From assembly GCA_900540425.1 (NCBI GenBank), contig UQFU01000055.1, positions 1 to 11,844 on the forward strand: 11,844 nt of DNA, written 5' to 3'. Position numbers and translations under genes: made by a program. Under the pieces are notes generated by a model, which was given only the letters and a program-made list of their open reading frames with translations, did not search any database and was not told where the DNA came from. Of the stretch, positions 3,512 to 11,830 are shown piece by piece (within the stretch, counting starts at the first letter, position 1; every line of letters begins with the position of its first letter). This DNA comes from an uncultured Alphaproteobacteria bacterium. GTDB lineage: Bacteria > Pseudomonadota > Alphaproteobacteria > RF32 > CAG-239.

Positions 3512-4429
3512 ATGTGGCGTTTGGAAAAATTCCGCCGGCGTGAGCGCGGTTGGAAAAAGGTAGGCTTATGTCTGGTTGCGGCAGCCGGTTGGGCTGTGCC
3601 GTCTGATGTTTGGGCAGCGGTTTGCTTTTTACCCGATTGTGTGGATAAGAAACTGGAGTTTGTTCCGAGCGGCGTTGAAAGTTGTTTGGCTGCCGGTTAT
3701 GAGAGCAGTTCTTCGCGGATTTGTCCCGAGTATTCCAATATTGAGCATTGTCCTGAAAATTCTTCTTATATTAAATGTAATTTGCGCCAATGGTGTCTTG
3801 ATCATGCTTACGTGGAAACGGAGTGTGATGTCCCTTATTATCTTGATGAAAAATGTCCGAACGGCGAGGAGCTTTATAAGAATTGTTCGGTTGATTATGA
3901 GCGTTCCTGTCAGGATTTGAGCGAGGATTATGTCGCCGTTTGTCCCGACGGTTTCGGTCGTGATGAAACGGAGGTCTGCCCGTATTCTAATTTGTATGCA
4001 AAATGTTGCAATTTATGCGAAGGGTTTGATTATGAGGCAGATGAGATACCGGAGGGGTATGTTGCCGGGAACAGTTGTTTTGCCTGTGGTGACGTTATGA
4101 AGTACGAAAAGGAGGTTAATCCCTGTATCGGTTATCAACGTTGTCCTGACGGACATAAAAGCGGTACGGACGAGTGCCGTCACGGTGATGAAATATGGTA
4201 TGAAGAATGCTGCGCTTATGAGTGTGATTTGCCTTTTTGTCCGGAGGGGACAGAGTGCCGTTTTGAGGCCTGTTCGGAAAAATATTGCGGATTGGGGTGT
4301 TTGGCCGATTACGAAAACTATTGCACGGTTCCGATTACGGACTGCAATTTGTTGGGTTATACGCGGGAAGATTGCGCCGGCGACAGGTTGATTTGTCCGT
4401 ATGATGAGCAAAAGTATTATTGTATTTAG
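3512..4429 (+). CDS. Secreted cysteine-rich protein, unknown function
   Basis: The 305-aa product begins with a long basic n-region (RRRERGWKK), a hydrophobic core (VGLCLVAAAGWAVP) and a likely signal-peptidase I site after VWA (residue 35). The ATG is preceded by a good GGAGAAGG ribosome site. The mature part of about 270 residues contains 34 cysteines, spaced as degenerate repeats of the kind C..GY...CP....YxKC. Disulfide-bonded modules outside the cytoplasm are therefore likely. The last module (residues 271-304: C, DC, LGY, CPYD, C) is the same type as the N-terminal module of the next protein (residues 30-62). It ends abruptly with that module, so it may be a paralog or partner of the next gene product that lacks the lectin-like domains. 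The stop codon is 13 bp before the next start, so the two genes form an operon. No catalytic motif is visible. Confidence 0.85.
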   Translation: MWRLEKFRRRERGWKKVGLCLVAAAGWAVPSDVWAAVCFLPDCVDKKLEFVPSGVESCLAAGYESSSSRICPEYSNIEHCPENSSYIKCNLRQWCLDHAYVETECDVPYYLDEKCPNGEELYKNCSVDYERSCQDLSEDYVAVCPDGFGRDETEVCPYSNLYAKCCNLCEGFDYEADEIPEGYVAGNSCFACGDVMKYEKEVNPCIGYQRCPDGHKSGTDECRHGDEIWYEECCAYECDLPFCPEGTECRFEACSEKYCGLGCLADYENYCTVPITDCNLLGYTREDCAGDRLICPYDEQKYYCI

Positions 4430-4442
4430 AGGAGGGTGCGTT

Positions 4443-7025
4443 ATGAAAAAAATCGGCATAAGAAAAATATTGATGTTCGGCACGGCGGGATGCTATCTAA
4501 TTGGAGCGGCCGGTGCCAAAGCTCAGACTTGTACTCCAGCGCCGGACTGCGAAAGTCTGGGGTATGACCAAAGTGTTTGTCCGGGTGGTTTTTTGCGCTG
4601 CCCGTTTGATGCTGACAAGCTGTTTTGCACTCCGGAATGCAATTTGACAATTACGGCAGAACAATGTGCGGCGGAGTGCAAAAATCCGGGAAAACTTTCT
4701 TGTATCCGGGAGGGTGTGACCTATTATTCGGAATGTGGAGATAGTTTGTGTCGGGGAACCGAACAATGCGAGCAGGGACAAAAGGACGCTGATGATAATT
4801 GGAGCGCAGGCGTTTGTACTGCCGGCGGTTTGGGCGGAATCTTATACAGCGATATGACGGTCAGCAGAGAAATTGTTTCCGGCAAAACGGCTATTGGCGT
4901 CATTGCCACCGGAGATGCCGACAGCCGCCACCGTTTGGTTGTGGCGTTAAAAGATTCCGGCGATTTGAAATGGAGTACGGCAGTTTCCGATTTGTCGTTG
5001 ACGAATTATGCTTTGAAGGAAGATGCGTTGAAAGATCGGAGCGGCAAAGAGAGCACATCGGTTTTGGTCGCCGCTTCGGGGGACAACAGTCAGCATGCCG
5101 GCGGGTATTGTTATAATTATACGACTGCCGGTACCAAAAAAGGGCAGTGGTATTTGCCGGGAGCCGGTGAGTTGCATGAGGCTTTTTATACCAACGGCAG
5201 CCGATTGGCGGAAACGCTTTCCAGAATTTCGGGTGCTGCCGCTCCCGTTACGGACGGTTTATATTGGACGGCCACCGAAAGAGACGAGACTACGGCCTGG
5301 GGAGTTAAGTTTGGCGAAGATGTCGTTCATTACGGCAGTAAAACGGCGCCGGATACGGTTAAGAAGGCCCGCTGTTTCTTTGAGGTGACGTATAATGACG
5401 ACGGAACGGTCGCGCCGGTTTGCGAAACCGGGTATCATTGGGAGAATTCGGCTTGTACGCCTGATTGCGGCAATGGCGAGTACTGGGACGGTTCTGCTTG
5501 TAAGTGTCAAACTCAGTATACGCAGGATTGCACGGCTGACGGGAATGTCAGCGGCGGCGAAGGGATTGAGTGCGGCGGCAAGTATGCGTCTTGCAGCTGT
5601 GTGGCGGGCGCAAGCTGGAACGGTAGTGACTGTGTTTGCAACAGCAGTTATAAATACAGCTGTGACGGAGCGGGAGAACTGCCGGATACCAGTAACGGCT
5701 GCGGCGGAAAATATAAGGCCTGCGGTTGTGAGGCCGGCTATTACTGGTCGAATGGTGTGTGCAAGGTCAATTGTTCGACATTGTGCGACACCGGTAATAT
5801 TTATTACAGCGACGGAACGTGCAGTTCGTGTTATAATTCTGCCAAGACAGCAATCGGCGTGATTGCGCTGAATCAGGGGAGTGCGCGACTGGTAATAAGC
5901 CTAAACGAATCGGAGCTGCTTTGGGCGCCGATGAACGAGGATGTTTCCGGCATGGGAGAAGCTTCTTCGGGTAAGTCGGAAACTTCTACTTGGGTCGGTT
6001 ATTATGGTGCGGAGTTGTCGGATTATGCGCCGGGGTATTGTTATAACTATACGACGACAGGCACGTCTAAGGGACAATGGTTTTTGCCGTCGTTGGAAGA
6101 GTATGAAAAGATTATGAGCCGGGTGACCGCAGTTAACCGCGGGCTGGTTGAAACCGGCAGCCAGGCCTTATCCGGAGATTATTATACCTCAACACAGTTG
6201 GATAAGGATAATGCCGCTGTCAGTTCTGGCGGAAAGTCTGACAAACAAGAAAAGCAAAAAACACGGTGTTTGATGTATATGGAAGTTAATGACACAAATG
6301 ATAAGGGAACGCTGTGTAATGCCGCTTATAAGTATTCTTGTTCGGGAGCCGGATATCTTTGCGGATTGGGAGAAACTTGTGGCTGGCTATTTAAGAACTG
6401 TCAGTGTACGGAGGGGTATTATAATCAGGACAACCGTTGTTATTCTTGTGATGCCAGTTGCGATGAAATCGGCAGTATTTATTACAGCGACGGAACCTGC
6501 AGCCTTTGTTGGCTGACTTCCAAAACGCCGGTAGGGGTTGTGGCTTATAAGTCTGGTGACAAGCGTTTTATGATTAGTTTGGAAAATAAAAGTATGAAAT
6601 GGAGCGCCGATCAGGTCGATATTGCCGCTTTGCGCAATTTTTCTTCGGCGGAAGCTGCTAAGTTAGATATGGAGGGTAAGGAAAACACCCGGATTATTGT
6701 AGAGCATTATGGCGCAGATACAGATGTAAGCACTAATGCGGCGGTTTATTGTTATAATTATGCTCCAGAAGCTCTCTCGGAAACGAAAGGACAATGGTAT
6801 CTTCCGGCGGCCGGAGAGGCTTATTTGAGCTATTATGCCAATAATACCATGATTAATAAGGGGTTGAAAACGCTTGGATTGACAAATTTAGGTGATCGGC
6901 ATTGGTCTTCGTCCGAGTACACGTACGACGACGCGTGGTACGTGAACGCCTATAGCGGCGGTGTGCTCAACCTCAGCAGTAAGTCCAACGACGATGGTTA
7001 CGTCAGGTGTGTCCTCGCTTTTTAA
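4443..7025 (+). CDS. Secreted Cys-rich protein with three C-type-lectin-like (DUF1566/Lcl/FISUMP-type) domains; candidate DGR variable protein
   Basis: I start this 860-aa protein at the ATG at 4443, directly after AGGAGG (4430-4435) and opening a signal peptide that ends AKA|Q at residue 27. An upstream in-frame ATG (4401) lies inside the previous gene and is rejected. Order: Cys module 30-62; more Cys-rich sequence to about 125; lectin-like domain 1 at about 132-313; two Cys-rich modules at about 354-434; domain 2 at about 452-612; one Cys-rich module at about 625-660; domain 3 at about 678-860. Each lectin-like domain has a YSD start, a (T/P)xGV strand, a YCYNY element and GQW(Y/F)LP (234-239, 544-549, 783-788), and ends near an RC motif. 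The last 40 codons look like a DGR variable region. It is probably exported as an adhesin or receptor; the ligand is unknown. It is co-transcribed with the preceding Cys-rich gene. Confidence 0.85.
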   Translation: MKKIGIRKILMFGTAGCYLIGAAGAKAQTCTPAPDCESLGYDQSVCPGGFLRCPFDADKLFCTPECNLTITAEQCAAECKNPGKLSCIREGVTYYSECGDSLCRGTEQCEQGQKDADDNWSAGVCTAGGLGGILYSDMTVSREIVSGKTAIGVIATGDADSRHRLVVALKDSGDLKWSTAVSDLSLTNYALKEDALKDRSGKESTSVLVAASGDNSQHAGGYCYNYTTAGTKKGQWYLPGAGELHEAFYTNGSRLAETLSRISGAAAPVTDGLYWTATERDETTAWGVKFGEDVVHYGSKTAPDTVKKARCFFEVTYNDDGTVAPVCETGYHWENSACTPDCGNGEYWDGSACKCQTQYTQDCTADGNVSGGEGIECGGKYASCSCVAGASWNGSDCVCNSSYKYSCDGAGELPDTSNGCGGKYKACGCEAGYYWSNGVCKVNCSTLCDTGNIYYSDGTCSSCYNSAKTAIGVIALNQGSARLVISLNESELLWAPMNEDVSGMGEASSGKSETSTWVGYYGAELSDYAPGYCYNYTTTGTSKGQWFLPSLEEYEKIMSRVTAVNRGLVETGSQALSGDYYTSTQLDKDNAAVSSGGKSDKQEKQKTRCLMYMEVNDTNDKGTLCNAAYKYSCSGAGYLCGLGETCGWLFKNCQCTEGYYNQDNRCYSCDASCDEIGSIYYSDGTCSLCWLTSKTPVGVVAYKSGDKRFMISLENKSMKWSADQVDIAALRNFSSAEAAKLDMEGKENTRIIVEHYGADTDVSTNAAVYCYNYAPEALSETKGQWYLPAAGEAYLSYYANNTMINKGLKTLGLTNLGDRHWSSSEYTYDDAWYVNAYSGGVLNLSSKSNDDGYVRCVLAF
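5798..5824 (+). repeat. Internal repeat in the lectin-like gene (second copy 6476-6502)
   Basis: The first 21 nt, which open lectin-like domain 2, are identical to 6476-6496, which open domain 3. After one G/C difference the next five bases (TGCAG) also match. They encode the shared IYYSDGTCS start. A further near-identical stretch encodes GYCYNYTT in domains 1 and 2 (about 5102 and 6033). This shows that the domains arose by duplication or recombined recently enough to keep DNA-level identity. Confidence 0.8.
6903..7022 (+). other. Candidate DGR variable region (VR) at the 3' end of the lectin-like gene
   Basis: This segment encodes residues 821-860, the C-terminal part of lectin-like domain 3. 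The first five codons (6903-6917) hold one adenine, and the final 21 nt before the stop (7002-7022) hold one adenine, as expected for invariant flanks. Between them (6918-7001), 22 of 28 codons end in C or T, 17 of them in C: TAC, GAC, AAC, CTC, AGC, TCC, GCC, GGC. Such codons arise when AAC or AAT template codons are mutated at A. The six exceptions are ACG, GCG, TGG, GTG (twice) and AAG; all but ACG and AAG are adenine-free. In residues 678-819 tyrosine is TAT at 10 of 11 sites, but here it is TAC at 4 of 5. Known DGR target proteins place the VR at the C-terminal ligand face of a C-type-lectin fold, as here. The template repeat and reverse transcriptase are not in the window. Confidence 0.7.
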
Positions 7026-7051: not shown

Positions 7052-7087
7052 CTAAATCGCAGCGAGCGACTGCGAGCTGCGATTTAG
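7052..7087. repeat. Perfect 12-bp inverted repeat downstream of the candidate VR
   Basis: CTAAATCGCAGC (7052-7063) and GCTGCGATTTAG (7076-7087) are exact reverse complements, separated by a 12-nt loop (GAGCGACTGCGA). An alternative inner pairing (CGCAG/CTGCG) is possible. It begins 26 bp after the stop codon. It is not followed by a T-run (AAAATTCTTC), so it is unlikely to be an intrinsic terminator. Hairpin or cruciform elements just downstream of the VR are known to promote target recognition in the Bordetella phage BPP-1 DGR, though those have short tetraloops. Function here is inferred from position. Confidence 0.75.
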
Positions 7088-11676: not shown

Positions 11677-11751
11677 GGCCGGTTGGCAGAATGGCTTATG
11701 CAGAGGACTGCAAATCCTTTTATATCGGTTCAATTCCGGTACCGGCCTCCA
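11677..11751 (+). tRNA. tRNA-Cys (anticodon GCA)
   Basis: A 7-bp acceptor stem (GGCCGGT with ACCGGCC), an anticodon loop CTGCAAA giving GCA, and a T arm with loop TTCAATT are visible. The discriminator base is T, as required in tRNA-Cys, and CCA is encoded (11749-11751). Only 4 bp separate it from the next tRNA, so both are probably processed from one transcript. Confidence 0.95.
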
Positions 11752-11755
11752 TCAT

Positions 11756-11830
11756 TCCGACTTAGCTCAGTGGTAGAGCAATCGGCTGTTAACCGATTGG
11801 TCGCAGGTTCGAGCCCTGCAGTCGGAGCCA
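11756..11830 (+). tRNA. tRNA-Asn (anticodon GTT)
   Basis: The acceptor stem TCCGACT pairs with AGTCGGA, the D arm reads AGCTCAGTGGTAGAGC, and the anticodon loop CTGTTAA gives GTT. The T arm has GGTTCGAGCC, the discriminator is G and the CCA end is encoded (11828-11830). The body closely resembles alphaproteobacterial tRNA-Asn. Confidence 0.96.

Follow-up and report, generated by a model that had tools for sequence, protein, structure and literature searches.

The 3' end of a lectin-like gene on an 11,844-nucleotide contig from an uncultured alphaproteobacterium (UQFU01000055.1; the whole stretch is here referred to as the window) very probably forms the variable repeat (VR) of a diversity-generating retroelement (DGR). 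We conclude with high confidence that this repeat belongs to a secreted or surface protein of the Lcl_C/C-type-lectin-like kind, and that it is diversified by a DGR of the avd-template repeat (TR)-reverse transcriptase (RT) type located elsewhere in the genome (Table 1). That the gene is a DGR target had been proposed in a sequence-only reading of the window. The proposal is supported by the hypervariability of the protein's end between alleles, by the homology of this end to the TR and VR ends of relatives, and by adenine-directed mismatches in the relatives. Throughout, handles beginning with G, L, C, and P denote genomes, loci, contigs, and proteins; the conserved 3' segment of the VR is named after the initiation of mutagenic homing (IMH) segment of DGRs.

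Table 1. Predicted features of the target gene and its 3' end, in coordinates of the window
Feature	Position	Strand	Basis or description
DGR target gene	4443..7025	+	860-aa Cys-rich protein; open reading frame, Pfam PF07603 Lcl_C, internal repeats, alignment with P0001, P0002, P0005, and P0007
C-terminal C-type-lectin-like (Lcl_C) domain	6483..7022	+	VR sits in its last strands
Variable repeat (VR)	6903..7022	+	TGG TCT TCG TCC GAG through the last codon; homologous to G003 TR and VR ends; hypervariable between alleles
Hypervariable VR core	6918..7001	+	Codon count; 14 substitutions and a one-codon gap in residues 827-852 versus P0001
IMH-like conserved 3' segment	7002..7022	+	GTCAGGTGTGTCCTCGCTTTT; one or two differences from the ends of G003 VRs and of all three G003 TRs
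Inverted repeat	7052..7087	+	12-bp stem, fold of -22.1 kcal/mol, 29 nt after the VR; candidate DGR target-site hairpin or cruciform

The decisive evidence comes from the comparison of alleles. A homologue search with residues 680-860 of the target protein returned 28 proteins, two of which, P0001 (859 aa; its cluster has 302 members) and P0002 (735 aa, without a middle stretch), are, judging from their sequences, alleles of the window gene. Outside residues 827-852, P0001 and the window protein are identical at 833 of 834 positions; inside them, 14 residues differ, 11 agree, and one is deleted (25 aligned of 26; p = 5e-23). P0002 shares 707 of 710 aligned residues with the window protein outside the core, while inside it 17 are changed and 8 kept, with one gap. 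Thirteen of the 14 codons that differ from P0001 are NNC or NNT in the window, the remaining one being ACG. The residues kept in both alleles (A831, V834, A836, G839, G840, V841, and K847) are encoded by GCG, GTG, GCC, GGC, GGT, GTG, and AAG, and the changes between alleles stop at the IMH-like segment. Most of the other homologues keep the frame WSSSE...AW.V...G....K....YVRCVLAF, with letters and lengths varying in between. Excess variation between close alleles, which the sequence-only reading had set as a check, was thus found at the protein level. Because P0001, P0002, and the window differ in the VR while being otherwise near identical, recent activity of the diversifying system is needed to explain them.

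The core also stands apart from the rest of the gene in codon style. A recount reproduced the numbers first reported: 22 of the 28 core codons have C or T at the third position, the flanks 6903-6917 and 7002-7022 hold one A apiece, and tyrosine passes from TAT (10 of the last 11 sites upstream) to TAC (4 of 5 inside the core). Over the whole gene upstream of the core, tyrosine is encoded by 46 TAT and 7 TAC. C/T-ending codons are a weak signal alone, since 26 of 833 28-codon segments of the same gene equal the core (Fisher p = 0.02). The excess of C-ending codons (17 of 28; Fisher p = 2.4e-5 versus the rest of the gene) is strong evidence, and this number is reached in just 5 of the 833 segments, all five overlapping the core. 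Under mutagenesis at adenines, AAC- or AAT-type template codons would now read NNC or NNT in the core, and the non-A bases that the VR is expected to share with its template are TGGTCTTCGTCCGAG...GCGTGG...GTG...GCC...GGCGGTGTG...AAG...GTCAGGTGTGTCCTCGC.

A DGR with the corresponding repeat end is present in G003, the relative closest to the window by a tetratricopeptide repeat (TPR) protein encoded near the target gene, among those whose RT and template region are covered. G003 contig C22 carries an avd gene, then three template-like repeats, and then the RT gene. The Avd protein matches PF22296 (63.9 bits, above the cut-off of 40), NF033474 (E 1.2e-14; 54.5 bits, under the curated cut-off of 80), and phrog_3206. 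The RT matches PF00078 and the PHROG reverse transcriptase (E 1.7e-94) and carries GNLSSQ and YVDDF motifs; the PDB sequence that it matches best is 8ub7, "Reverse transcriptase" (E 8.8e-32), presumably the RT of BPP-1. The templates measure 111 or 120 nt and share a YVRCVLAF end; all three close with TACGTCAGGTGTGTTCTAGCTTTT, and the window VR closes with TACGTCAGGTGTGTCCTCGCTTTT. Ends of this type also stand on G003 target genes on C2, C20, C22, and C24 (two identical copies) and on three target genes in G002. The proposed placement of the VR at the C-terminus of a lectin-like protein, closed by a conserved IMH-like segment, agrees with the relatives. As for other genes that would share the 7002-7022 end, the exact string has no match in genome_contigs or viral_contigs, while versions with one or two differences occur on the G003 targets. 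We rejected G003 TR2 as the template of the window VR (12 mismatches at 79 non-A positions and 15 gaps). G003 C17 has a VR with this end (L118, 32928-32951) that is internal to an open frame instead of terminating it and is itself cut by the contig break; over 77 nt, as far as the contig end, its body is shared with C2, through either biology or assembly.

We assessed the direction of VR changes in relatives that carry their own templates. VR-like ends found by motif, after subtraction of array units, numbered 31 in G086 (34 raw matches, in a genome of about 1.6 Mb), 18 in G063 (21 raw), 16 in G082 (18 raw), and 11 in G084 (18 raw), with 20 in G089 and 14 in G094. A reversed-pattern control gave one match in G094 and none in the other five. 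We aligned 87 VRs to the templates of their own genomes: 29 of 31 from G086, 20 of 20 from G089, 11 of 18 from G063, 13 of 16 from G082, all 11 from G084, three distinct ones from G003, and none from G094. Template self-hits were dropped, and for G003 we left out the L122 VR (identical to array unit 1), the C24 duplicate, and C17. The motif matches of G019 are its four array units, and the comparison excludes this genome. Mismatches to the best template were more common at A in 87 of 87 VRs from six relatives' genomes, and 86 of the 87 end at a stop codon. Unfiltered, 1591 of 3356 template adenines differed, compared with 973 of 7241 non-A bases. In the 25 VRs with at most three non-A mismatches, 419 of 978 adenines and 39 of 1979 non-A bases were changed, the adenines to G (198), T (159), and C (62); in G089, the VR motif itself requires one A-to-T difference from the TR near the end.

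A search of 152 family genomes, based on eight aligned RTs, found an RT match (E <= 1e-40) in 25. In seven of these, at least two tandem template units lie between avd and the RT gene: seven in G084, four in G019, three each in G003, G063, and G086, and two each in G082 and G089, at a spacing of 246-296 nt. Within a genome, most units can be told apart by length or by their non-A bases, with the exception of units 2 and 3 of G086, which are identical TRs. A single TR between avd and RT was found in G012, G016, G017, G050b, and G091. Eighteen of the 25 genomes have no array of two or more, and in several of them the RT lies at a contig end. At four loci (L109, L111, L183, and L188, in G004, G024, G050a, and G067) avd follows the RT; the TR-like stretches there close differently at the 3' side, for example with YVRCFQLF in G004. 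Unit 2 of G084 (L177, TR start at about 1166, RT-forward) has a VR-like body with fewer Asn codons, a longer insert, and a full leader, and is the best fit for none of the 11 VRs of that genome. Repeats near the RT of G114 were rejected as templates by eye, as they look like ordinary interspersed repeats.

The templates are preceded by a conserved leader. The roughly 105 nt that precede the TRs align across 28 of them (11 loci), and the RNAalifold consensus has 23 pairs, 15 of them with two-sided changes. Over 26 distinct rows, 93.6% of cells are paired and the covariation score is 0.505, compared with 0.245 +/- 0.016 in shuffled alignments (0 of 500 as high) and 0.05-0.15 when slid; further pair types were reached by 15 of 500 shuffles. 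These controls lean in the structure's favor, the structure being derived from the same alignment and the rows being related. A model of the leader matches 24 of the 152 family genomes at E <= 0.01, 21 of which are among the 25 with an RT. G015, G053, and G139 have the leader only, and G001, G014, G087, and G094 the RT only; several matches lie outside the training set (for example, G010, G020, G024, G088, and G091). Among 385 genomes of the class, the model matches two at E <= 1e-4, G003 itself and G241. An Rfam scan of four DGR loci returned only a tRNA and no match to the leader. Two pairs of leader matches lie off the RT contig (G092:C26 29440-29814, 264 nt apart, and G082:C132 3563-4044), and from their sequence these are possible orphan template arrays.

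VRs could be assigned to individual units by their non-A bases. In G089, six near-perfect VRs fit TR1 and six fit TR2: L296, for instance, has 19 A and no other mismatches to TR1 and nine others to TR2, and L305 has 15 A and no other mismatches to TR2 and eight to TR1. The near-perfect VRs of G063 fit its three units one, two, and two times, and those of G082 fit its two units once each; these assignments show that several template units are used in three genomes (G089, G063, and G082). All four near-perfect VRs of G086 fit TR1. In G084, none of 11 VRs has three or fewer non-A mismatches to any present unit. The poorly fitting VRs (all those of G084 and most of those of G086) may come from templates that have since changed.

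We also fitted each VR to two templates with a free breakpoint, leaving out the last eight columns and counting a gap as 0.5; the counts that follow are given without a shuffled control. A gain that reached three or fewer contradictions was seen for 2 of 11 VRs in G063, 1 of 13 in G082, and 1 of 29 in G086. With a 5' part from TR2 and a 3' part from TR1, contradictions fell to zero for L236 (G063) and L253 (G082), from 5 and 6.5 for the best single template. For L248 (G063), they fell from 6 to 1 with TR3 followed by TR2, and for L256 (G086), from 4 to 1. Other VRs of G063, G082, and G086 that gained from two templates stay poor, and none of the 20 in G089 gained. Three VRs (L236, L253, and L248) look like two-template mosaics by this measure; template switching or successive partial replacement would both fit.

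Several points weigh against the conclusion that a DGR diversifies the window gene. In the window there is no match to the profile of the family's RTs, no match to the G003 Avd, no second copy of 6903-7022 or template, and nothing convincing by the leader-RNA model (best E 0.12). The nearest template found, G003 TR3, was rejected as the template of the window VR, with 22 mismatches at 89 non-A positions. P0002 changes W832C (TGG) and G852F (GGT), which lie beyond the adenines of a template sharing the window's other bases and would need another template or other mutations. P0001 and P0002 are available as protein sequences, and their variation is at the protein level only. Among the relatives, the aligner and the filter of at most three non-A mismatches favor A mismatches, the related loci are draft assemblies, and repeats are where assemblies fail. 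With no RT, Avd, or second VR copy in the window, the machinery must therefore lie at least 6.9 kb upstream or at least 4.8 kb downstream of the VR. The claim that template and RT are elsewhere in the genome is supported to this extent.

If the window's genome resembles G003, a template RNA, probably from one of several tandem cassettes with a structured leader, would be reverse transcribed by an RT-Avd complex with errors at adenines. The cDNA would replace the VR, anchored at the conserved IMH-like segment, and the replaced VR would alter the ligand-binding face of the lectin-like domain. We think it somewhat probable that the window gene belongs to such a multi-template DGR. Leader-bearing cassettes would stand in a row before one RT, and their cDNAs would combine within a single VR and mutate at A, so that diversity would be both combinatorial and mutational over dozens of lectin-like genes. 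That the alleles differ in length by one codon is consistent with retrohoming that drew on templates of unequal length. Alternatively, the same DGR could have a single ordinary template in the window's genome; the arrays of the relatives would then have no bearing here, and turnover of the template from strain to strain would account for the length difference. Loci with one template are common in the family, and the 18 RT-bearing genomes without an array point the same way, although in several of them the RT lies at a contig end. The three G003 templates of two lengths with one shared end argue against it, as do the two VR lengths of the window gene in otherwise near-identical proteins; we regard a single template as quite possible, short of probable. 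Array units might also take up finished VRs as stored copies. Unit 1 of the G003 C22 array (L102 13271-13382, noncoding) agrees with the VR of target L122 on the same contig at every one of 112 nt, with flanks that differ on both sides. This identity could reflect unmutated copying in either direction or an assembly artefact, and we consider storage unlikely because assembly of repeats could produce it.

The remaining explanations would remove an active DGR altogether. A relic VR, left by past diversification in a lineage that has lost its DGR, would suit the findings in the genus of G003, where the IMH pattern occurs in just two of seven genomes and RT matches in G001, G003, and G004 only. 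The many VR differences between P0001, P0002, and the window, near identical elsewhere, make a relic very unlikely. Antigenic variation by gene conversion from silent cassettes, with no mutagenic RT, could draw on the large paralogous families related to the target in these genomes and on the identical VR bodies at two places in G003. It would predict neither A-directed mismatches to template repeats, nor RT and Avd neighbors, nor allele changes that stop at the IMH, and we give it scarcely any credence. A foreign or codon-biased 3' segment, or a chance codon style, with no diversification, would accord with C/T-ending codons that alone are only marginally unusual for the gene, and is refuted by the hypervariability between alleles, leaving it practically no probability.

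The target protein is 860 aa long, as first reported, provided that it starts at the ATG at 4443; the longest open reading frame, from 4401, encodes 874 aa. Its N-terminus has a putative Sec signal peptide, judged by eye. By eye and from internal repeats of the gene at 5095, 6025, and 6736, the protein has three Lcl_C-like domains, and the VR ends only the last one. The PF07603 Lcl_C match (E 4.1e-13; 50.1 bits versus a curated cut-off of 34.9) covers two stretches, the better of which, residues 216-306, lies outside the VR domain. A structure model of the VR-bearing domain predicts, with high confidence, a lectin-like fold, which would place the VR in a C-type-lectin-like fold. No match was found in NCBIfam with the whole protein, in PHROGs with the C-terminal domain, or in PDB sequences with that domain at E <= 1.

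We also noted the inverted repeat downstream of the VR, a candidate DGR target-site hairpin by its sequence. Among the loci compared, the central 24 nt of this repeat were found again at only one, G003 target L122, likewise after the VR. Other G003 targets have unlike sequence downstream of the VR and lend no support to a general role. In BPP-1, according to the accessible text of PMC3240598, a hairpin or cruciform after the VR is needed, and phage DGR hairpins lie 4-34 bp after the VR, with a GC-rich 7- to 10-bp stem and a GRNA loop. A hairpin after the VR is a feature that the window may share with the BPP-1 DGR (brt, avd, TR, and a VR in mtd; PMC3240598, same portions); the candidate in the window has a longer stem (12 bp), and its loop has no clear fit to GRNA.

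Directly upstream of the target gene, 3512-4429 encodes a 305-aa Cys-rich protein of secreted type, with no Pfam match at E <= 1 and tblastn matches in 5 of 80 relatives' loci. For the TPR protein (1836-2801), identity is 93-96% in the top seven of the 80 loci, which are mostly records named as metagenome-assembled genomes of Alphaproteobacteria. The alphaproteobacterial host first proposed is in line with these relatives, and the family searched includes Azospirillum sp. CAG:239 (G019, the genome of locus L019). The relatives' contigs sometimes end soon after the target gene (for example, L003 and L004). The window ends in tRNA-Cys and tRNA-Asn genes (11677-11830).

In the usual picture of a DGR, one template feeds one or a few nearby targets. 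With BPP-1, the window and its relatives share what we take to be the RT-Avd-TR architecture, A-directed mutagenesis, a VR at the 3' end of a gene for a C-type-lectin-fold protein, and the IMH. Unlike in BPP-1, the window target is a cellular, secreted-type Lcl_C protein with no RT nearby, and the relatives have tandem templates, each with a structured 5' leader, and many dispersed targets. The C-terminal domain of Legionella Lcl (PF07603) belongs to the same family and modeled fold as the window domain, whose last strands would here be the DGR variable region.

Remote DGR targets are already in print, as the accessible portions of PMC4891356, PMC7517822, and PMC3521204 indicate; by default, DiGReF looks 5 kb to either side of the RT (PMC3521204, in part). 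Treponema denticola has a chromosomal DGR with core and remote target genes; the available text describes one TR type per isolate, several per human individual, and no tandem TRs at one RT (PMC4891356). In cyanobacteria, dispersed C-type lectin (CLec) genes with 3'-terminal VRs are tied to the genome's DGR, with 76 remote targets over the surveyed genomes in the sections seen (PMC7517822), compared with up to about 31 VR-like ends in a single genome here. The closest precedent is provided by the multi-TR DGRs of the MetaCSST survey, in which, in the parts available, a single TR serves 216 of 271 DGRs with several VRs. Stenotrophomonas sp. SKA14 there combines two TRs with six VRs, five of which are in DUF1566 proteins, and Pseudomonas costantinii has six unique TRs that are described as atypical and show few A-to-N changes (PMC6642488). 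The same portions contain no tandem leader cassettes, assignment of VRs to TRs by non-A bases, or mosaics (PMC6642488). Across the accessible literature, including parts of PMC8144416, PMC10907252, PMC10743442, and PMC10053308 and with coverage that leaves out most subscription papers and bioRxiv, we found no account of template cassettes in tandem that carry leaders of their own, of mosaic VRs, or of DGRs in this bacterial family. DGRs with several TRs and remote targets are already known; the array form with leaders seen in the relatives would be new relative to that literature. These small gut genomes combine a template array with dispersed lectin-like receptors that share templates and bear signs of template mixing. 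They make testable the idea that bacteria build receptor repertoires combinatorially, and the conserved RNA leader offers a marker for template cassettes.

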